Below, piece after piece: positions 48,833 through 57,877 of a stretch of DNA of 64,000 nucleotides. Source of the DNA: Acidimicrobiaceae bacterium. Lineage in GTDB: Bacteria > Actinomycetota > Acidimicrobiia > Acidimicrobiales > RAAP-2. The position numbers were made by a program, and so were the translations under genes. The notes below the pieces were generated by a model, which worked only from the letters and a program-made list of their open reading frames with translations, was not told where the DNA came from and ran no database searches. The DNA lies in contig PMFA01000026.1 of the NCBI GenBank assembly GCA_003155915.1, positions 1-64,000 on the forward strand. Direction: 5' to 3'. Each line of letters begins with the position of its first letter. Within the stretch, counting starts at the first letter, position 1.

Positions 48833-49200
48833 GATCGGCACAATTACGGGGCCTGCGCGGCGCCACGACGTGTGACGAGGACACGCCGGCGGCGATTGAG
48901 GACGCCACGCAGGAGCTATTGCGAGCGATGATGGACCGAAACGAGTTGGCCCACGACGACGTCGTCAGCGTGATCTTCACCACGACGCGCGACCTGACGT
49001 CGACCTTCCCGGCGACCGCGGCGCGCGGCATCGGCTTCGGCGACATCCCCCTGCTCTGCGCCAGCGAGATTGACGTGCCCGGATCGATGCCGAGGTGCAT
49101 ACGAATCCTGATTCACCTCTATACGACCAGGCCCCGAAGCGATCTTCGACACGTCTACCTTCGAAACGCTCAGGGCCTGCGTGATGACCTCCCCGAATAG
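48829..49200 (+). CDS. aroH: Chorismate mutase, AroH type
   Basis: A 123-residue trimeric-fold chorismate mutase: QLRGLRGATTCDEDTPAAIEDATQELL (with the Arg of RGATT), VVSVIFTTTRDLTSTFPATAAR, and the C-terminal CIRILIHLYTTRPRSDLRHVYL. It converts chorismate to prephenate, the substrate of the next gene product. The start overlaps the rluB stop and its end overlaps tyrA by 20 bases. Confidence 0.93.
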   Translation: MRSAQLRGLRGATTCDEDTPAAIEDATQELLRAMMDRNELAHDDVVSVIFTTTRDLTSTFPATAARGIGFGDIPLLCASEIDVPGSMPRCIRILIHLYTTRPRSDLRHVYLRNAQGLRDDLPE

Positions 49201-50257
49201 TCGCCACGCGCACGTCGTCGGTCTCGGCTTGATCGGCGCGTCGGTGGCGCTCGCACTCACGGAGACCGGCTGGTCCGTGACGGGCCGGGACAGTGACGCC
49301 GCGACGGTGGCCGCCGCGATCAACGGCGGCGTCGTGACCGGTACAGATCCGTCACCCGACGTCGAATTGGTCGTCATCGCGACGCCGGCGGGAATCGTGG
49401 CGCGACTGGCGAGTGAGATCCTGGCGCACGTGACGAATCCCGAAGTCGTCGTCACCGACGTGGCCGGCGTGAAGGGTTCGATCGTGGCGGCCGTCACCGA
49501 CCAGCGATTCCTCGGTGGTCACCCCATGGCCGGTTCGGAGTTGCGCGGACTTGCCGGTGCGCGCGCCGACCTCTTTCGCGGTTCCACGTGGGTCCTCACG
49601 CCGACCGATCAAACTTCACCCTCCACCTACAGCACGCTGCACGGCATCTTGCGCGAGATCGGCGCCAACGTCGTCGCGGTCAGTGCCGAGGACCACGACC
49701 GATTGGTCGCCATCGCCAGCCACGTCCCGCACCTGTTGGCCGGCTCCCTGATGAACGAGGCCAGCCAGGTCGCCGAGCAAGACGCCGTCTTGTTGCAACT
49801 CGCGGCCGGAGGTTTTCGCGACATGACCAGGATCGCCGCCGGTGATCCGGGGATCTGGCCCGACATCCTCTTTGAGAATCGCGACGCCGTCGTCCAAAGC
49901 CTCGAGGCCCTCGAAGGACGACTCCAGAGCCTTCGAGCGGCGTTGCTCGATGACGAACGCGACGTCATCCTGGAGAGCCTGTTGAGCGCCGCGAGTGCGC
50001 GCCGACAGCTACCTGGTCGCGCTCTGAGCACCGAGGACCTGGCCTATCTGAGGGTGAAGGTGAGTGACGAACCGGGAGTCCTCGCTCGCGTGACGAGATC
50101 GGCGTCGGAGCTGGCGGTCAACATCTACGACATCGAAATCGCCCACGGCATCGAGGGAACGGGCGGCACGCTGCTGCTCGCCGTCGACGCCCAACAGTCC
50201 CAGATGTTCACTGAAGCGCTCTCGGCGCTCGGCTTTCAAGTAGCGCTCGAACAGTGA
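49181..50257 (+). CDS. tyrA: Prephenate dehydrogenase with C-terminal ACT domain
   Basis: A 358-residue enzyme of tyrosine synthesis: NAD-binding VVGLGLIGASVALALTETG (GxGxxG at 14-19), VTDVAGVKG, GGHPMAGSELRGLAGARADLF and the His-containing SAEDHDRLVAIASHVPHLLAG. From about residue 290 an ACT domain (LRVKVSDEPGVLARVTRSASELAVNIYDIEI) suggests feedback by an aromatic amino acid. The frame opens with GTG-ATG (49181/49184), inside aroH; either can be the start. Confidence 0.93.
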   Translation: MMTSPNSRHAHVVGLGLIGASVALALTETGWSVTGRDSDAATVAAAINGGVVTGTDPSPDVELVVIATPAGIVARLASEILAHVTNPEVVVTDVAGVKGSIVAAVTDQRFLGGHPMAGSELRGLAGARADLFRGSTWVLTPTDQTSPSTYSTLHGILREIGANVVAVSAEDHDRLVAIASHVPHLLAGSLMNEASQVAEQDAVLLQLAAGGFRDMTRIAAGDPGIWPDILFENRDAVVQSLEALEGRLQSLRAALLDDERDVILESLLSAASARRQLPGRALSTEDLAYLRVKVSDEPGVLARVTRSASELAVNIYDIEIAHGIEGTGGTLLLAVDAQQSQMFTEALSALGFQVALEQ

Positions 50258-51534
50258 GTACCGCGAACGTCGAACACTTCGAGCGGCTGCGCGGCAGCGT
50301 TCGGGTGCCGGGCGACAAGAGCACCTCACACCGAGCCCTCATGGTGAGTGCCCTGGCCGAGGGCGAAAGCACCATTCGAGGACTCTCACCCGGATTGGAC
50401 GTGGCCGCGACCGCACAGATTATGGAACAGCTCGGCGCGACGCGGAGCGTCCGCGACGACGTCGTCACGATCGTCGGGCCCTCCGGGGGCCTTCACGCCA
50501 GTGATGACGCCCTGGACTGTGGCAACTCCGGCACCACGATGCGACTGGTGTCGGGGGTCGTGAGCGCGCTGCCCGGAGAGCACCGGCTCATCGGTGACGC
50601 TTCATTGTCCCAGCGCCCGATGGACCGTGTCGCCGAGCCGTTGACGCTGATGGGTGCCCGAATCGAAGGTCAGGGACCGCGCCTCAGTGCCCCCTTGCGT
50701 GTCGTCGGCACGGACGTCCTTCGCGGCATCGCCTACGACGTGCCGATGGCGAGCGCACAAGTCAAGTCCGCGATCCTCTTCGCCGCGCTGGCCGCCAACT
50801 CCCCAACGACTGTGGTGGAGCACGTGCGCACGCGACCTACGACCGAAGAGATGTTCTCACGGGCCGGCGTGTCGGTCGTGAGCATCGAGAGCGGCGACGG
50901 TCGCAGCGTCACGATTCAACCCGGGCGGCCCCTCGCGAGGAATTGGCTGGTACCGGGTGATCCGTCACAGGCCGCGTTCTTCGCGGTGCTCGGGTGCATC
51001 CATCCCGACGCCGACATCGAGGTCCTGGACATCGACAACGCCCGAGAACGCGTCGGGTACCTCGGTGTTCTCCAACGGATGGGGGCCACCATGACGTTGC
51101 AGACTCGTGACGCCATGACGACGCTCACCGTGCGTAGCTCGCAGTTGGCGGCCACCGAGGTTCACGCGCGCGAGATCCCGTCAGTCGACGAAGTGCCGGT
51201 CTTGGTTGTCGCCGCGGCCGCGGCTGAGGGCTTGAGCAGCTTTCGTGACGTCGGAGAACTTCGCGTCAAGGAGTCCGATCGCTTCGAGGGGTCGTTGGCG
51301 TTGGCGACGAAACTCGGCTGTCGTGCGTGGTCCGAAGGCGACGACCTGTTCGTCGAGGGTCTCGGAAGCGCGACGCGCTTCTCGAGCTTCGAAGTCGACG
51401 CGGGCCTCGATCACCGAATGGTGATGGCCAGTGCCGTGGCGGGATGTGCCGGCGAGGGCTGTTCGATCGGCGCGGCCGACACGGTCGCGTCGAGCTACCC
51501 AAATTTCTTCGACGACCTCGAGCGACTGGCGTGA
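50254..51534 (+). CDS. aroA: 3-phosphoshikimate 1-carboxyvinyltransferase (EPSP synthase)
   Basis: A 426-residue enzyme joining shikimate-3-phosphate and PEP. Visible are LRGSVRVPGDKSTSHRALM, LDCGNSGTTMRLVSGVVSA with the PEP-contacting Gly, GDASLSQRPMDRVAEPL, and the C-terminal ELRVKESDRFEGSLALATKLG and GLDHRMVMASAVAGC. Length is normal. GTG 50254 overlaps the tyrA stop and its own stop overlaps the cmk start, each as GTGA. Confidence 0.95.
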   Translation: MSTANVEHFERLRGSVRVPGDKSTSHRALMVSALAEGESTIRGLSPGLDVAATAQIMEQLGATRSVRDDVVTIVGPSGGLHASDDALDCGNSGTTMRLVSGVVSALPGEHRLIGDASLSQRPMDRVAEPLTLMGARIEGQGPRLSAPLRVVGTDVLRGIAYDVPMASAQVKSAILFAALAANSPTTVVEHVRTRPTTEEMFSRAGVSVVSIESGDGRSVTIQPGRPLARNWLVPGDPSQAAFFAVLGCIHPDADIEVLDIDNARERVGYLGVLQRMGATMTLQTRDAMTTLTVRSSQLAATEVHAREIPSVDEVPVLVVAAAAAEGLSSFRDVGELRVKESDRFEGSLALATKLGCRAWSEGDDLFVEGLGSATRFSSFEVDAGLDHRMVMASAVAGCAGEGCSIGAADTVASSYPNFFDDLERLA

Positions 51535-52160
51535 GCGACCTCGTCATCGCTATTGACGGTCCGGCCGGTTCAGGCAAGTCCACCGTGGCCCGAGCGGTGG
51601 CCGCGCTGCTCGGGTGGTCGTTCCTCGACACGGGCGCCATGTATCGCGCGGTCACGTGCGAGGCGATCTTTCGAGGTATCGACGTCCACGACGAGGCGGC
51701 CGTCGCGGCCGTGGCCGACAGCGTGACGCTCACGACGCTGCCGCGCGTGAGCGTCAACGGGCGCGACGTGGAAGACGAGATTCGTAGCGACGAGATCAAC
51801 GAAGCGGTGTCCGTCGTCGCGGCCAATCCCGAGGTTCGCGCGTCCATGGTGGCGCGACAACGAGAACTGGCCGCCGCCCAGCCCCTGGGCACCGTCGTCG
51901 AGGGACGCGACATCGCGACGGTGGTCTTTCCTCACGCCCCGGTCAAGATATTCCTCACCGCCTCGCTCGAGGAACGGGCGCGTCGCCGCGGCGACGAGGG
52001 CGAGGTCTCCGTGGCCCGACGTGACGAGGCCGACTCCACCCGAGTCGCCTCGCCGCTACGTCAGGCTGACGACGCTCTCGTGCTAGACACGACAGGTCGA
52101 GACGTCGAGGACGTCGCCCAGGAGATAGTTCAATGGCTGAAACACAACCTCTCGAACTGA
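51531..52160 (+). CDS. cmk: Cytidylate kinase
   Basis: A 209-residue kinase with P-loop DGPAGSGKST near residue 9, FLDTGAMYRAVT, EGRDIATVVFPHAPVKIFLTAS and the closing helix RDVEDVAQEIVQWL. It makes CDP from CMP. GTG 51531 overlaps the aroA TGA; codons upstream in frame belong to aroA. The last 28 bases overlap plsC. In Mycobacterium cmk is followed directly by der, whereas here plsC and several other genes intervene. Confidence 0.95.
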   Translation: MSDLVIAIDGPAGSGKSTVARAVAALLGWSFLDTGAMYRAVTCEAIFRGIDVHDEAAVAAVADSVTLTTLPRVSVNGRDVEDEIRSDEINEAVSVVAANPEVRASMVARQRELAAAQPLGTVVEGRDIATVVFPHAPVKIFLTASLEERARRRGDEGEVSVARRDEADSTRVASPLRQADDALVLDTTGRDVEDVAQEIVQWLKHNLSN

Positions 52161-52792
52161 GCGAAGAACGTACCTTCACGTATCGCCTCTGCGCCGGGCT
52201 GGTCCAGGTCCTCTCGAAGGTGCTCTTTCGGCCGAGCGTCGTCGGGGCCGAAAACATACCGCTCGAGGGACCGGTCATCATCGCGCCGATTCACCGCTCC
52301 AACGTTGACTTCGCGCTGACCCTGTTCATCTCCAAGCGCAAGGTGTTCTTCATGGCCAAGGATTCGCTCTTTCGCGTGCCGCTGCTCGGACCGCTGATTG
52401 CCCATCTCGGAGCGTTCCCGATTCGCCGCGGAGCGGCCGACCGCGAGTCGATGGCGCACTCCGAAGCCGTGTTGCGCCAGGGTCACGCGCTGGTGCTCTT
52501 TCCCGAAGGGACGCGCAAGGAGGGACTTGCGGTGGCTCCGTTGCACGACGGCGCCATGTTCGTCGCGGCGCGAACCGGCGCCAAGGTGGTGCCGGTCGGC
52601 ATCGGCGGCAGCGATCGGGCGATGCCCAAGGGCGCCAAGCTCCCACGTCCGTTGAAGATCACGATCGTCGTTGGTGCCCCCATCGACCCGCCGTCATCCG
52701 AGGGCCGTGTCACTCGTTCGGCGCTCAGTGCCAAAAGCGAGGAACTACGCGCGGCCTTGGAGAAGGTGTATCTCCAGAGCCTGCGCGGCTGA
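52133..52792 (+). CDS. plsC: 1-acyl-sn-glycerol-3-phosphate acyltransferase
   Basis: A 219-residue membrane-associated enzyme with the HX4D motif in PIHRSNVDF (His54, Asp59), the glycerol-phosphate contact FPEGTRKEG and VPVGIGGSDRAMPKG. It turns lysophosphatidate into phosphatidate. It is coupled to cmk by a 28-base overlap, an arrangement also known from other bacteria where plsC follows cmk. Last gene of the scpA operon. Confidence 0.92.
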   Translation: MAETQPLELSEERTFTYRLCAGLVQVLSKVLFRPSVVGAENIPLEGPVIIAPIHRSNVDFALTLFISKRKVFFMAKDSLFRVPLLGPLIAHLGAFPIRRGAADRESMAHSEAVLRQGHALVLFPEGTRKEGLAVAPLHDGAMFVAARTGAKVVPVGIGGSDRAMPKGAKLPRPLKITIVVGAPIDPPSSEGRVTRSALSAKSEELRAALEKVYLQSLRG

Positions 52793-53945: not shown

Positions 53946-54983
53946 CTAGCGATTCGCGGCCGACAGCACTTCGGCGGCGGTGAAGCGACGATCCGCCTCG
54001 CCGTCGAAACTCGACGCGGCGGGCGTGCCGAGCGCCAGGTCCAGCAACGCCGAGAGGGTCTTGAGCATCTCGCGCAGTTCCGGGGGTGGTGGGAAGTACT
54101 CGTCTTCGACTGTGACCGACGTGATGGTCACTCCTTCGGTGGGGTTCAGTGCGTCGAGCACTTCATTGACCAGTGACTCGGGGGCCGACGCTCCGGCGGT
54201 GACCGCCACGGTGCCGCGCAGGTCATCGGGCAACTCGAAGGCGCCGTTGACCCTCAGCACCCTCGCACAGCCCACGGCCTCGGCGACTTTGGTGAGCGCC
54301 ACCGTGTTCGACGAGTTCGCCGAGCCGATCACGATGACCGCGTCGGCTTCGGCGGCGATCGTGCGGAGCGCGGCTTGGCGGTTGGTGGTCGCGAAACAGA
54401 GATCGCTGCGATTGGGCATCCAGATGTCCGGGAACTTCGCCTCGGCGTACTCTCTGAGGTCCTGCCACTCGTCCAGGCTGAGTGTGGTCTGGCTGAGCAG
54501 GGCGAAGGGGCCGGCGAACGTGCCGAGGGCGTCGATGTCCTCGGTGGACTCGATCAGGTGGACCGACTGGGGTGCCACGGCCATTGTCCCCACGGCCTCT
54601 TCATGGCCCTGATGGCCGACGTAGAGCACGGTGTAGCCCTTTCGAGCTCGGACTTTCAACTCGTGGTGGACCTTCGTGACGAGCGGGCACACGGCATCAA
54701 TCACCGTGCCACCGGACTGTCGGGCGGCCTCGATCACTTCGGGTGGCGAACCGTGCGCGCTCAACATCACCGGCGCCCCGGGCGGCACCAGCGTGACGTC
54801 GTCGATGAACACGACGCCGAGAGATTTGAAGTAGTCCACGACGAACTGGTTGTGAACGATCTCGTGGTAGCAAAAGACCGGTGGGGCGAAGACCCGCGTC
54901 ATCCAATCGAGCGCCTTGATGGCCTTCTCGACGCCGGCACAGAACCCCCGTGGGGCCGCGAGCACAACCTTATCCACGTTCAC
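53946..54983 (-). CDS. ispH: 4-hydroxy-3-methylbut-2-enyl diphosphate reductase
   Basis: A 345-residue iron-sulfur enzyme giving IPP and DMAPP in the MEP pathway. The three cluster cysteines are visible: Cys15 (APRGFCAGV), Cys98 (VIDAVCPLV) and Cys195 (DLCFATTN), with the substrate residues in HGSPPE, HQGHEE and SQTTLSLDEW. GTG 54983 was chosen: it gives the normal N terminus and TAGGCT (54996-54991) stands seven bases upstream. The frame is open further up but reads antisense of the next gene. Divergent from the radical SAM gene. Confidence 0.95.
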   Translation of the reverse strand: MNVDKVVLAAPRGFCAGVEKAIKALDWMTRVFAPPVFCYHEIVHNQFVVDYFKSLGVVFIDDVTLVPPGAPVMLSAHGSPPEVIEAARQSGGTVIDAVCPLVTKVHHELKVRARKGYTVLYVGHQGHEEAVGTMAVAPQSVHLIESTEDIDALGTFAGPFALLSQTTLSLDEWQDLREYAEAKFPDIWMPNRSDLCFATTNRQAALRTIAAEADAVIVIGSANSSNTVALTKVAEAVGCARVLRVNGAFELPDDLRGTVAVTAGASAPESLVNEVLDALNPTEGVTITSVTVEDEYFPPPPELREMLKTLSALLDLALGTPAASSFDGEADRRFTAAEVLSAANR

Positions 54984-54990
54984 GAAATCC

Positions 54991-55026
54991 AGCCTAGTAA
55001 TGACGAATTGGGATTCCTCGTAGGCT
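54991..55026. promoter_or_regulatory. Divergent leaderless promoters of ispH and the radical SAM gene
   Basis: The same hexamer TAGGCT occurs on the minus strand (54996-54991, seven bases before the ispH GTG) and on the plus strand (55021-55026, six bases before GTG 55033). Only 24 bases separate them, so the two promoters share their upstream DNA. This ties expression of an Fe-S enzyme to a predicted Fe-S radical enzyme. Confidence 0.6.
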
Positions 55027-55032
55027 GGACGG

Positions 55033-56406
55033 GTGTCGGGCGCCCGAATCTCCTCAATTTCCATGGATTCACCGGCCTCGAGCGTGGATTTGGCCGTCGG
55101 CGACGAATTGGTGAGTGTGAACGGCCGCGAGCCGAGTGACATCATCGAATACCAACAACTGATCGACGGCGAGAGCGTCACCTTGGTCATCCGCCGCGAG
55201 GGCGATGACCTGGCTCGCAAGGTCACGATCACCAAGACCGAGGGGCAGCCGCTCGGTCTCAGCATCGACTCGGCGGTCTTTGACCGGATCCGCACCTGTG
55301 ACAACCACTGTTCGTTCTGCTTTATCTACCAGCTCCCCAAGGGCATGCGCCGCTCGCTCTACGTGAAGGACGACGATTTTCGCCTCTCCTTCCTCTACGG
55401 CAACTACACGACGTTGACGCGCTTCACCGAATTCGACCTGGAGCGGGTTCTCGACGAGGGGCTCTCGCCGCTCTACGTTTCGATTCATACGACGGATCCC
55501 GAACTGCGCGCCGAGATGCTGCGCAACCCGCGTGGCGCGACGAGCCTTCGCTGGTTGAAGGAGCTGCTTCGCGAGGGCATTGAGGTGCACGCCCAAGTCG
55601 TTGTCTGTCCGGGGGTGAATGACGCACAACACCTGGAGCGCACGTTGCACGACGTCATCTCGCTCTATCCGGAGTTGGCGTCGGTTGCGTTGGTGCCGGT
55701 CGGTGTCAGCGCCTTCTCCGACGAAGCCACCATGCGTTCGCACACGCTCGAAGAAGCTCGAGCGGTCGTCGAACTCGCCGAACATTTTCAGTCGCTCACG
55801 CTCGAGATCCTCGGGCGCGTCAACGTGTTCGCGAGCGACGAGTTCTACCTCGTCGCCGGCGCGACGCCACCGTCGGCCACGAAGTTCGAAAGCCTGGACC
55901 AGGCGGAGAACGGCATCGGACTCGTCGCGGCCTTCGTCCAGAGTTTCGTCGAGCAAACGCCCATGGACAAGCTCGGCACCGGTTTCTTCCAGTCCGTGGA
56001 CGGGGCGCCCGCGCTGGGGTACCGCGCGCCACGCGGCGGCGACGGCAACGTGCAACAGGGTGACGACGTGCTCGTCGTGACCGGCGAGTACGCCGCGCCG
56101 ATCCTTCGCCAGATGTTCGACGTGGAGGGATTTTCCGACGTGAGAATCCTCGCGGTCGAGAATCGATTCTTCGGCGGCAATATCAAGGTCGCCGGACTGC
56201 TGACCGGGCAGGACCTCATCGACGCCCTCGCCGGGGTCACGCCCGAGACCGTGATCCTGGTGCCCGACGTCTGCCTCTCCGAAGGGAGGTTCCTCGACGG
56301 GCTCGATCTCGAGGACCTCGGACGCTCGGTCACGGTCGTGCCGACGACGGGTCAGGACCTTCGTGCGGCGTTGACGTCGGTGCGGTCCCAGCGGGTGAGC
56401 GCGTGA
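55033..56406 (+). CDS. PDZ-radical SAM-DUF512 protein
   Basis: A 457-residue protein with an N-terminal PDZ-like segment (ISMDSPASSVDLAVGDELVSVNGREPSD, about 7-65), a radical-SAM cluster motif CDNHCSFC (Cys89, Cys93, Cys96), a TIM-barrel-like region and the C-terminal DUF512 domain from about residue 285 (TGEYAAPILRQM ... ENRFFGGNIKVAGLLTGQDLIDAL, VPDVCLSEGRFLDGL). The family (TIGR03279-like) is widespread in clostridia, cyanobacteria and actinobacteria and often next to der; its reaction is unknown. GTG 55033 follows TAGGCT by six bases. The stop overlaps der by four. Confidence 0.88.
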   Translation: MSGARISSISMDSPASSVDLAVGDELVSVNGREPSDIIEYQQLIDGESVTLVIRREGDDLARKVTITKTEGQPLGLSIDSAVFDRIRTCDNHCSFCFIYQLPKGMRRSLYVKDDDFRLSFLYGNYTTLTRFTEFDLERVLDEGLSPLYVSIHTTDPELRAEMLRNPRGATSLRWLKELLREGIEVHAQVVVCPGVNDAQHLERTLHDVISLYPELASVALVPVGVSAFSDEATMRSHTLEEARAVVELAEHFQSLTLEILGRVNVFASDEFYLVAGATPPSATKFESLDQAENGIGLVAAFVQSFVEQTPMDKLGTGFFQSVDGAPALGYRAPRGGDGNVQQGDDVLVVTGEYAAPILRQMFDVEGFSDVRILAVENRFFGGNIKVAGLLTGQDLIDALAGVTPETVILVPDVCLSEGRFLDGLDLEDLGRSVTVVPTTGQDLRAALTSVRSQRVSA

Positions 56407-57695
56407 AACCGCAAGTTGTGATCGTGGGCCGACCGAACGTCGGCAAGAGTTCGCTCGTGAACCGTCTCGCGGGCAAGCGCGTCACCGTGGTCGAAGAGCA
56501 CCGCGGCGTGACGCGTGACCGCAAGGCGGTCGAAGTCGAATGGGGCGGACTTAGCTTCGACGTCGTCGACACCGGAGGGTGGCTGGAAGCCGGCGACTCG
56601 CTCGAGGCCAAGGTCTCCAAGCAGGCTGAAGCAGCGCTCGCGACCGCCGACCTGGTGCTGTTGGTGGTGGACGTGACGACGGGAATGGTCGACGAGGACA
56701 CGCACGCCGCTCGGTGGGCGCTGCGTAGCGGTCGTCCGGTGTTGCTCGTGGTCAACAAGGTCGATGACGCCCAGCACGAAGCCGCCAGCTGGGAGTTCCT
56801 GGGACTGGGCGCGGGCGATCCGCACACGGTGAGCGCCCAGCACGGGCGCGGCACCGGCGATTTACTCGACGTCATCGTGGCCCGACTCGAAGAAAATCGG
56901 ATCGTCGAAGAGATCGCCGAAGCCGACGACGACGGCGCCCTGCGCGTCGCCATCGTGGGACGACCGAACGTCGGTAAATCCACGTTGTTCAACCAACTCA
57001 TTGGTGAGGAGCGTTCGGTCGTGCACGACCTGCCAGGTACGACGCGTGACGCCATCGACACGTTGGTCTCGACCGACGTGGGGCTGATTCGATTCATCGA
57101 CACCGCCGGGATGCGACGACGCGCGAAAACCGAAGCGGGACTCGAGACCTACGCCGTGCTGCGCAGCCTGGACGCGCTCGACCGCTCCGACATCGCCATC
57201 CTCGTCATCGACGCCACCGTCGGCGCTACCGGTCAGGATCAGCGTTTGGCCGAGCGAATCTCCGCGGCCGGTTGTCCCTCGTTGGTCGTACTGAACAAGT
57301 GGGAGCTCGTGGCGATCGACGAGCGCGACGCGGTACTCGCGACGGTGGGCGAGAAGTTGGCGTTCCTCGGCGACGCACCGGTGATGAAGACGACCGCCAC
57401 TTCGGGTAAGGGCGTGCACCGGATCCTGCCGGCGCTCGCGATCGCGGCCGCGGACTACCAAAAGCGAGTGCCGACGGGCGCTCTCAACCGCGCCATTCGC
57501 GACCTGCAGGTAAAGCAGCCGGCGCCCACGGGCAAGATCCGCTACGCCGTTCAGGGGGCGACGGAGCCACCGACCTTCACGCTGTTCATTGCCGGACGCC
57601 TGCCCCAGACGTACCTGCGTTACGTCGAACGATCGCTCCGCGAGCGATTCTCCCTCGGCTCGCAGCCACTTCGAGTACGCGTTCGGATTGAATAG
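56403..57695 (+). CDS. der: Ribosome biogenesis GTPase Der (EngA)
   Basis: A 430-residue protein with tandem GTPase domains: first P-loop GRPNVGKS at 9-16, second at 186-193, switch motifs DTGGW and DTAGM, NKVD and NKWE base motifs, and the C-terminal KH-like domain (TGALNRAIRDLQVKQPAPTGKIRYAVQGATEPPTFTLFIAG). It acts in assembly of the 50S subunit. GTG 56403 overlaps the DUF512 gene stop, so both are co-translated. Confidence 0.96.
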   Translation: MKPQVVIVGRPNVGKSSLVNRLAGKRVTVVEEHRGVTRDRKAVEVEWGGLSFDVVDTGGWLEAGDSLEAKVSKQAEAALATADLVLLVVDVTTGMVDEDTHAARWALRSGRPVLLVVNKVDDAQHEAASWEFLGLGAGDPHTVSAQHGRGTGDLLDVIVARLEENRIVEEIAEADDDGALRVAIVGRPNVGKSTLFNQLIGEERSVVHDLPGTTRDAIDTLVSTDVGLIRFIDTAGMRRRAKTEAGLETYAVLRSLDALDRSDIAILVIDATVGATGQDQRLAERISAAGCPSLVVLNKWELVAIDERDAVLATVGEKLAFLGDAPVMKTTATSGKGVHRILPALAIAAADYQKRVPTGALNRAIRDLQVKQPAPTGKIRYAVQGATEPPTFTLFIAGRLPQTYLRYVERSLRERFSLGSQPLRVRVRIE

Positions 57696-57877
57696 TGACG
57701 AAGTGGTGCGAGCAGTGCGACCGCCCCGTCGAGGGTGACACCTGCGAGATCTGTGGCGAGACGGTCGAAGCTCCGATTCGCCAGCCGATCCCGTGGCGCT
57801 GGCGTTTTTTCATCGTGGTGACGATCATCTACGTCATCTGGCGGATCTATCAGTTAATTTCGTGGCTGAGCCACTAG
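57695..57877 (+). CDS. 60-residue zinc-ribbon membrane peptide
   Basis: GTG 57695 begins in the last base of the der stop codon. The product has an N-terminal zinc ribbon (CEQCDRPVEGDTCEICGE, residues 5-22) and one C-terminal membrane segment (RWRFFIVVTIIYVIWRIYQLI). It may be a small adaptor that brings a partner to the membrane; no function is known. The coupling to der makes a role with Der or the ribosome conceivable. Confidence 0.75.
   Translation: MTKWCEQCDRPVEGDTCEICGETVEAPIRQPIPWRWRFFIVVTIIYVIWRIYQLISWLSH

Follow-up and report, generated by a model that had tools for sequence, protein, structure and literature searches.

The locus described here lies in the first 64,000 nucleotides (nt) of contig PMFA01000026.1 from an Acidimicrobiaceae bacterium (hereafter the window), which is part of a 2.52-Mb draft genome (G000, 95.65% complete) and in which open reading frames (ORFs) were read from the sequence. 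The gene in question encodes an enzyme with PDZ, radical S-adenosylmethionine (SAM) and DUF512 domains, which is followed by der and faces away from ispH. The features of the locus were located as follows.

55033 to 56406, plus strand: PDZ-radical SAM-DUF512 enzyme, 457 amino acids (GTG 55033, TGA 56404-56406), assigned by Pfam/NCBIfam and by profile and fold matches to structure 9CG1
55297 to 55320, plus strand: iron-sulfur (Fe-S) cluster loop Cys89-x3-Cys93-x2-Cys96, aligned with the 9CG1 ligands Cys87/91/94 (roles from PMC11659888)
55369 to 55377, plus strand: DDD motif Asp113-115, the middle Asp aligned with the cluster ligand Asp112 of 9CG1
55693 to 56337, plus strand: predicted cobalamin-binding domain DUF512, with Thr350/Leu389 aligned with Thr323/Leu366 of 9CG1 (roles from PMC11659888)
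56403 to 57695, plus strand: der (engA), ribosome assembly GTPase (GTG 56403, TAG 57693-57695; TIGR03594, 461.8 bits)
57695 to 57877, plus strand: membrane peptide of 60 amino acids with a Cys4 zinc ribbon, read from the sequence (GTG 57695, TAG 57875-57877)
53949 to 54983, minus strand: ispH, the divergent neighbour, likely start GTG 54983-54981 (TIGR00216; Pfam)
55021 to 55026, plus strand: TAGGCT, putative leaderless -10 element of the DUF512 gene, 6 nt from its GTG
54991 to 54996, minus strand: TAGGCT, putative leaderless -10 element of ispH, 7 nt from its GTG
49181 to 52792, plus strand: tyrA-aroA-cmk-plsC, upstream remnant of a putative ancestral operon (Pfam; same order in locus L105)

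The end of the enzyme gene and the start of der shared 4 nt, GTGA at 56403-56406, as the earlier note on this DNA had stated. The overlap of der with the peptide gene, claimed in the same note, was also present, with a shared stretch of 1 nt only. Der scored 461.8 bits against a TIGR03594 cut-off of 306.7, with MMR_HSR1 in two stretches and KH_dom-like in Pfam, and IspH scored 242.7 bits against a TIGR00216 cut-off of 187.85.

Above the Pfam cut-off, the enzyme consisted of PDZ_6 (residues 6-55), Radical_SAM_2 (68-218) and DUF512 (221-434), and its nearest named relative was found in Acidimicrobiaceae bog_634 (78% protein identity). A profile of 14 relatives matched 9CG1, the DUF512 protein of Clostridium sporogenes (csDUF512), with an E-value of 3.4e-135. 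The AlphaFold2 model, computed from a 14-row alignment with a mean pLDDT of 79.8, gave 9CG1 as the best fold match in foldseek (E 1.6e-36, TM 0.73/0.75), followed by 9CG2 of P. furiosus and Mmp10. The window enzyme and csDUF512 were alike in domain order, cluster cysteines, DDD motif, Phe, Thr/Leu and fold, but belonged to different phyla with 31% identity over the structural alignment, and cobalamin binding in the window enzyme is predicted by homology. The cofactor residues (Cys89/93/96, Asp113-115, Thr350 and Leu389) were invariant in a 14-sequence alignment, and Phe97 aligned with the 9CG1 Phe between cluster and cobalamin. In 9CG1 the Thr contacts the dimethylbenzimidazole tail of cobalamin and the Leu takes the lower axial position (PMC11659888). 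Mmp10 (7QBS, foldseek E about 1e-11) resembled the window enzyme in the radical SAM core and the C-terminal DUF512-like cobalamin domain, but had no PDZ domain. The score of the window enzyme for the Mmp10 family TIGR03278 was 49.8 bits, under the equivalog cut-off of 350, and a family similarity to TIGR03279 (cyano_FeS_chp) reached 318.9 bits, under the equivalog cut-off of 574.7. Mmp10 is the methyl-coenzyme M reductase arginine methyltransferase, and its substrate is presumably absent from the window genome. Four DUF512 proteins have been reported to bind cobalamin, to form methylcobalamin and S-adenosylhomocysteine, and to cleave SAM to 5'-deoxyadenosine, with unknown substrate (PMC11659888, 2024), and a 2025 review still described the roles of DUF512 proteins as unknown (PMC13331322). 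The membership of the window enzyme in the class-2 cobalamin-dependent radical SAM proteins is settled by homology. The statement of the earlier note that the family has no assigned reaction holds for the substrate, which is still lacking in print, but not for the cofactors and the methylcobalamin chemistry, which were published in 2024 (PMC11659888).

DUF512 was detected in 93 of 246 Actinomycetota, 118 of 149 Bacillota and 40 of 101 Chloroflexota genomes, and some of the 118 Bacillota genomes also carried a radical SAM-PDZ-DUF512 paralogue. The loci read were 92 from Actinomycetota (all except that of the window), 65 of the 118 from Bacillota (the 30 top matches plus 35 lower-ranking ones, of which 17 were among the lowest) and the best 30 of 40 from Chloroflexota. 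To count as following, der had to share the strand of DUF512 and lie no more than 600 nt beyond the end of its match, and loci with enough flank were evaluated. It followed DUF512 in 89/91 evaluable Actinomycetota and 63/63 evaluable Bacillota loci, and lay within 300 nt in 85/91 and 63/63, respectively. At the two Actinomycetota exceptions der was 1.7 kb and 0.6 kb further on, the latter with a short DUF512 match. With starts picked by rule, the median gap was 8 nt in Actinomycetota (n = 90) and -4 nt in Bacillota (n = 62). Among the most similar 80 of 593 confirmed named loci, der followed in 50/50 evaluable Acidimicrobiia-like loci and in 20/26 others. These results confirmed that the adjacency on which the earlier note built extends far beyond the window genome. 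The pairing is genuine and ancient but had been described before: a PDZ Fe-S family beside engA/der and gpsA was published together with a translation hypothesis in 2019 (Muley et al., PMC6411480), and both the gene pair and the hypothesis are the same as here. Our additions to that report are counts, exceptions included, from samples of 246 Actinomycetota, 149 Bacillota and 101 Chloroflexota genomes, and the description of a PDZ-less clade, of the promoter pair and of the zinc-ribbon peptide. The description of the locus as an undescribed functional module had to be given up, with the pairing and the translation idea in print since 2019 and the cofactor chemistry since 2024 (PMC11659888). Two other arrangements were also recorded: a UBP17 genome carried the DUF512 enzyme directly behind the gene for elongation factor P (EF-P; L099:8407-10299), and in an Oscillospiraceae genome DUF512 stood away from der with a yceD gene (large-subunit rRNA accumulation) upstream (L089:7879-10308).

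We propose that the enzyme is a cobalamin-dependent radical SAM C-methylase working on the translation apparatus, a reading to which we give a probability of roughly 0.45, and a protein client is slightly favoured over RNA. In such a reaction, the PDZ groove would hold the C-terminal tail of the client protein, the 5'-deoxyadenosyl radical would abstract a hydrogen from an unactivated carbon, and methylcobalamin would donate the methyl in the manner of the arginine methylase Mmp10. The likeliest client would be a ribosomal protein or an assembly factor, reached during the action of Der on the large subunit, and the coupling to der would have enzyme and GTPase produced together. In Acidimicrobiia, the small zinc-ribbon membrane peptide is usually encoded in the same region. 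In favour of the proposal stand the sequence and fold matches to 9CG1, 9CG2 and Mmp10, the invariant cofactor residues, the constant der linkage with its short gaps, an enzyme tree in line with mainly vertical descent, the paralogue behind tsaD, the relative behind an EF-P gene, a C. difficile homologue scored essential by transposon sequencing (Tn-seq; PMC12548448) and four B12-binding domains above cut-off in the window genome. An Fe-S enzyme linked to ribosome assembly, as the earlier note had put it, or to translation is still the best reading, but it is not a new one (PMC6411480).

The wider gene context was examined in L105, where tyrA, aroA, cmk, plsC, ispH, DUF512, der, plsY and gpsA followed each other in one direction, interrupted by a single extra gene behind aroA and ahead of cmk; tyrA, aroA, cmk, plsY and gpsA were assigned by Pfam. 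The window kept this order, but ispH and a glycosyltransferase gene were inverted and the small peptide stood at the place of plsY. The divergent pairing pointed out in the earlier note was indeed seen, and it is explained by an inversion of ispH inside an ancestral co-directional operon. The commonest upstream neighbour was ispH, in 45/56 fetched Actinomycetota loci (27 co-directional, 18 divergent). An enzyme gene tree was built from 158 of 268 proteins with a midpoint root. It placed the 21 Chloroflexota rows on one side of a well-supported branch, as it did 12 PDZ-less rows, and largely matched taxonomy, with three changes needed for Bacillota and with Actinomycetota not forming one clade on the midpoint root. 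The tree fits an old and mainly vertical inheritance of the enzyme with losses.

An operon of this age raises the doubtful reading that the enzyme is a passive passenger, kept beside der through an old operon of mixed function and itself unrelated to ribosomes. Aromatic, nucleotide, lipid, isoprenoid and ribosome genes do stand together in this operon. Most relatives read that lack the enzyme still had der directly behind or facing ispH, and in several other Actinomycetota without DUF512 it lay behind cmk or plsC (judged by eye). Some Chloroflexota had cmk, plsC or ispH upstream of DUF512, with glmS-like or GAF-HD genes downstream, and these upstream neighbours were kept without der (IspH in 4 and PlsC in 4 of 21 evaluable loci). 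The passenger reading is weakened because the DUF512-der link outlasts the rest of the operon: in fetched subsets der-plsY was looser, with 21/57 in Actinomycetota against 89/91 for DUF512-der, and 25/33 in Bacillota. The same neighbours could point to modification of a lipid or isoprenoid, since ispH is upstream in most of the fetched Actinomycetota loci and plsC, plsY and gpsA recur. This appears improbable, as none of the four genes was as constant as der, and the PDZ domain and the kinship with Mmp10 favour a protein.

The earlier note had also drawn attention to an identical back-to-back TAGGCT hexamer, and hexamers on both strands were confirmed. The longer element TAGGCTGGA occurred once per strand in the window, on the plus strand at 55021-55029 and on the minus strand at 54996-54988. 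TANNNT stood 5-8 nt ahead of the start in 11 of the 48 window ORFs of at least 150 amino acids, whereas eight control spacings gave 3.0 on average. Elements of this form faced both ways between ispH and DUF512 in 43 of 61 divergent Acidimicrobiia loci (Markov resamples, mean 0.22 of 61), and TAGCCT and TAGGCT were the commonest back-to-back elements at these 61 loci. Because TANNNT precedes so many starts in the window, TAGGCT is a general leaderless -10 type of the lineage and no private signature of the ispH/DUF512 pair. The transcripts from both promoters are inferred to be leaderless.

The steady adjacency and the short gaps seen in two phyla would also be expected if Der itself were the substrate. 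To weigh this, 239 Der sequences from enzyme-bearing genomes (138+80+21) and 30 from enzyme-lacking genomes (11+10+9) were compared over 436 columns, with matches below 380 codons left out (275 of 284 kept). Fourteen of the 436 columns held one residue at 90% or more in all enzyme-bearing groups and at 80% or less in some enzyme-lacking group. None of the columns told genomes with the enzyme from those without it in each of the three phyla, and the lowest value was 64%, in a comparison from which an invariant target residue would escape. The Der C-termini were variable, mostly charged and unlike usual PDZ ligands. With no column tracking the enzyme in three phyla and no PDZ-like tail, Der was rejected as the substrate, a role that we consider very improbable.

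A relative of the enzyme brings tRNA into view. Many Bacillota had a second, weak DUF512 match among the matches listed, which belonged to a paralogue with the order radical SAM, PDZ, DUF512 and about 450-600 residues or more (three proteins read). In L271 its DUF512 score was 24.0 bits, just short of the cut-off of 25, and for the three proteins scanned no named NCBIfam family was found above cut-off among the matches listed. Twenty paralogue loci (18 Bacillota, 2 actinobacterial) were chosen non-randomly from the matches listed. In 18/18 Bacillota loci (L353-L370), tsaD lay upstream on the same strand at 28-1883 nt, in L357 as a fragment where the contig stops, and the loci also held tsaE (13/18) and a GNAT gene, rimI by context (15/18). 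An example is L353:4999-6345, with neighbours assigned by Pfam; L269 and L270 also carry the paralogue. Among the papers listed by a literature search, none joined tsaD, radical SAM and PDZ. Because the paralogue sits behind tsaD, synthesis of N6-hydroxynorvalylcarbamoyladenosine (hn6A) was considered for the PF04459 family. In hn6A, the threonyl group of N6-threonylcarbamoyladenosine (t6A) is C-methylated. M. jannaschii, M. acetivorans and T. maritima are named among hn6A makers (PMC10702137, PMC6313347), whereas PF04459 was found in 2 of 14 control genomes (14 names taken as the same set) and in none of these three, so the family, in the form in which PF04459 detects it, was rejected as the hn6A synthase; Synechococcus elongatus carries PF04459; the available parts of PMC7668247 and PMC7694415 held nothing decisive on hn6A.

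The same chemistry could nevertheless be directed at RNA, either 23S rRNA or tRNA, which is possible and in our view unlikely. The position of der as a large-subunit assembly factor gene agrees with it, as does the paralogue behind tsaD of the t6A genes in all 18 Bacillota loci, in an operon that often holds a GNAT gene, probably rimI. On the other side, Pfam found no added RNA-binding domain in the window enzyme, the substrate of Mmp10 is a protein, and the usual ligands of PDZ domains are the tails of proteins. To our knowledge, Mmp10 is the sole characterised DUF512-related enzyme.

Several results weigh against a C-methylase of the translation apparatus. In Chloroflexota, der adjoined DUF512 in 0/29 evaluable loci, although the contig of G432 carries it about 3.4 kb further downstream. 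It did not adjoin DUF512 in L089, L098, L099, L106 and L110 either, and was 914 nt off in L094. Twelve full rows of one actinobacterial family (L030, L031, L172, L179, L199, L200, L203-L205, L211, L213 and L217), set apart by a branch of SH-aLRT 100, began right ahead of the cluster cysteines without a PDZ domain. All 12 had ispH just upstream and der just downstream; the PDZ domain is dispensable in this lineage, and because these loci retain both neighbours it is not always needed. L005 and L007, with only the PDZ end in the reading frame, were tallied as PDZ-bearing. The actinobacterial paralogue was without tsaD at 2/2 loci, and a divergent copy (L371:2359-6381) lay directly behind a methylmalonyl-CoA mutase gene. 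The wider operon, with its lipid and isoprenoid genes, offers a mixed context, and the missing Der column that tracks the enzyme points the same way. The essentiality scored for the C. difficile homologue by Tn-seq could stem from polarity onto der. No CobS match was found in the 95.65% complete draft genome of the window.

Because no CobS match was found, the window organism probably salvages cobalamin. Self-made cobalamin was set aside as a requirement of the enzyme, with CobS in 11/32 DUF512-positive and 4/28 DUF512-negative genomes of the class, a difference that was not decisive. Slr2030 was discarded as a knockout record, for the literature uses a slr2030-slr2031 site with the insertion between the genes; it is written as a replaced site in PMC6058365, and the available parts of the papers using this site contained no report on loss of slr2030 itself. 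PMC10434189 and PMC7775120 were discarded as DUF512 sources, as their available parts concern DUF numbers such as 5123, 5124 and 5129.

The 60-residue peptide combined a Cys4 zinc ribbon at its N-terminus with a membrane segment at its C-terminus, with a sub-threshold Pfam match to DZR only. The 60 Acidimicrobiia loci evaluated had der and no less than 400 nt of flank (12 of 72 were dropped for want of either); in 46 of them a protein of the Cys4-membrane type lay downstream of der, within 35 nt of the der stop in 25 of the 46 and at 298-3656 nt in the remainder. The four Cys, Trp34, Tyr46 and Arg50 were invariant in 22 sequences. At 1e-7, the peptide profile had matches in 16 of 198 Actinomycetota genomes, every one of them from Acidimicrobiia, with up to 30 candidates per genome scored, so that weak members outside the class could escape. 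In a table of 60 class genomes counted by hand, to which a Fisher test was applied, the full peptide occurred in 28/32 DUF512-positive versus 1/28 DUF512-negative genomes and a membrane-only form in 2/32 and 10/28, while none was found in 2 and 17, respectively. The membrane-only form lay downstream of der in nine enzyme-lacking genomes, and the tenth had no der in the stretch. Ten of 11 enzyme-lacking genomes with a peptide homologue were without the zinc ribbon (L333, L334, L336-L343).

A Der+IspH tree of 91 rows was built with FastTree (L335 and L346 were dropped for lack of Der, and most of the 17 genomes without a peptide match are absent from it). Read by eye, it suggests that the ribbon was lost about three times and the enzyme about five times, with only two of these losses on the same tip branch, both long. 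In a ribbon-less clade of 13 rows, two members read as membrane-only retained the enzyme, and four more enzyme-bearing members lay outside the reading. Because the tree gives few independent events, a functional tie between zinc ribbon and DUF512 enzyme is suggestive only. In G143 the peptide stood behind der although DUF512 was absent. Ribbon and enzyme were rejected as one module, and the tie of the peptide to der is no weaker than that to the enzyme. The small membrane adaptor of the earlier note is accordingly a real Acidimicrobiia family near der, but its role as adaptor of the enzyme is weakened by G143 and the nine DUF512-less genomes.

Taken more widely, the PDZ/DUF512 proteins might all be radical methylases that depend on B12 and serve the translation machinery, in one family with two branches, a PDZ-first branch at der and 50S assembly and a radical-SAM-first branch at tsaD and rimI, with the Acidimicrobiia zinc-ribbon membrane peptide working with the der branch; we hold this only tentatively and as rather unlikely in its entirety. 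For some 6000 DUF512 enzymes the substrate has yet to be found (PMC11659888). The der link in two phyla, the link of the paralogue to the t6A operon and the clades without enzyme or PDZ domain make a translation substrate testable by modification profiles. Confirmation of such a substrate would tie vitamin B12 to the maturation of ribosomes or tRNA. If the wider proposal is true, many anaerobes and actinobacteria would mature their ribosomes or tRNA by way of a B12-dependent carbon methylation not yet seen.

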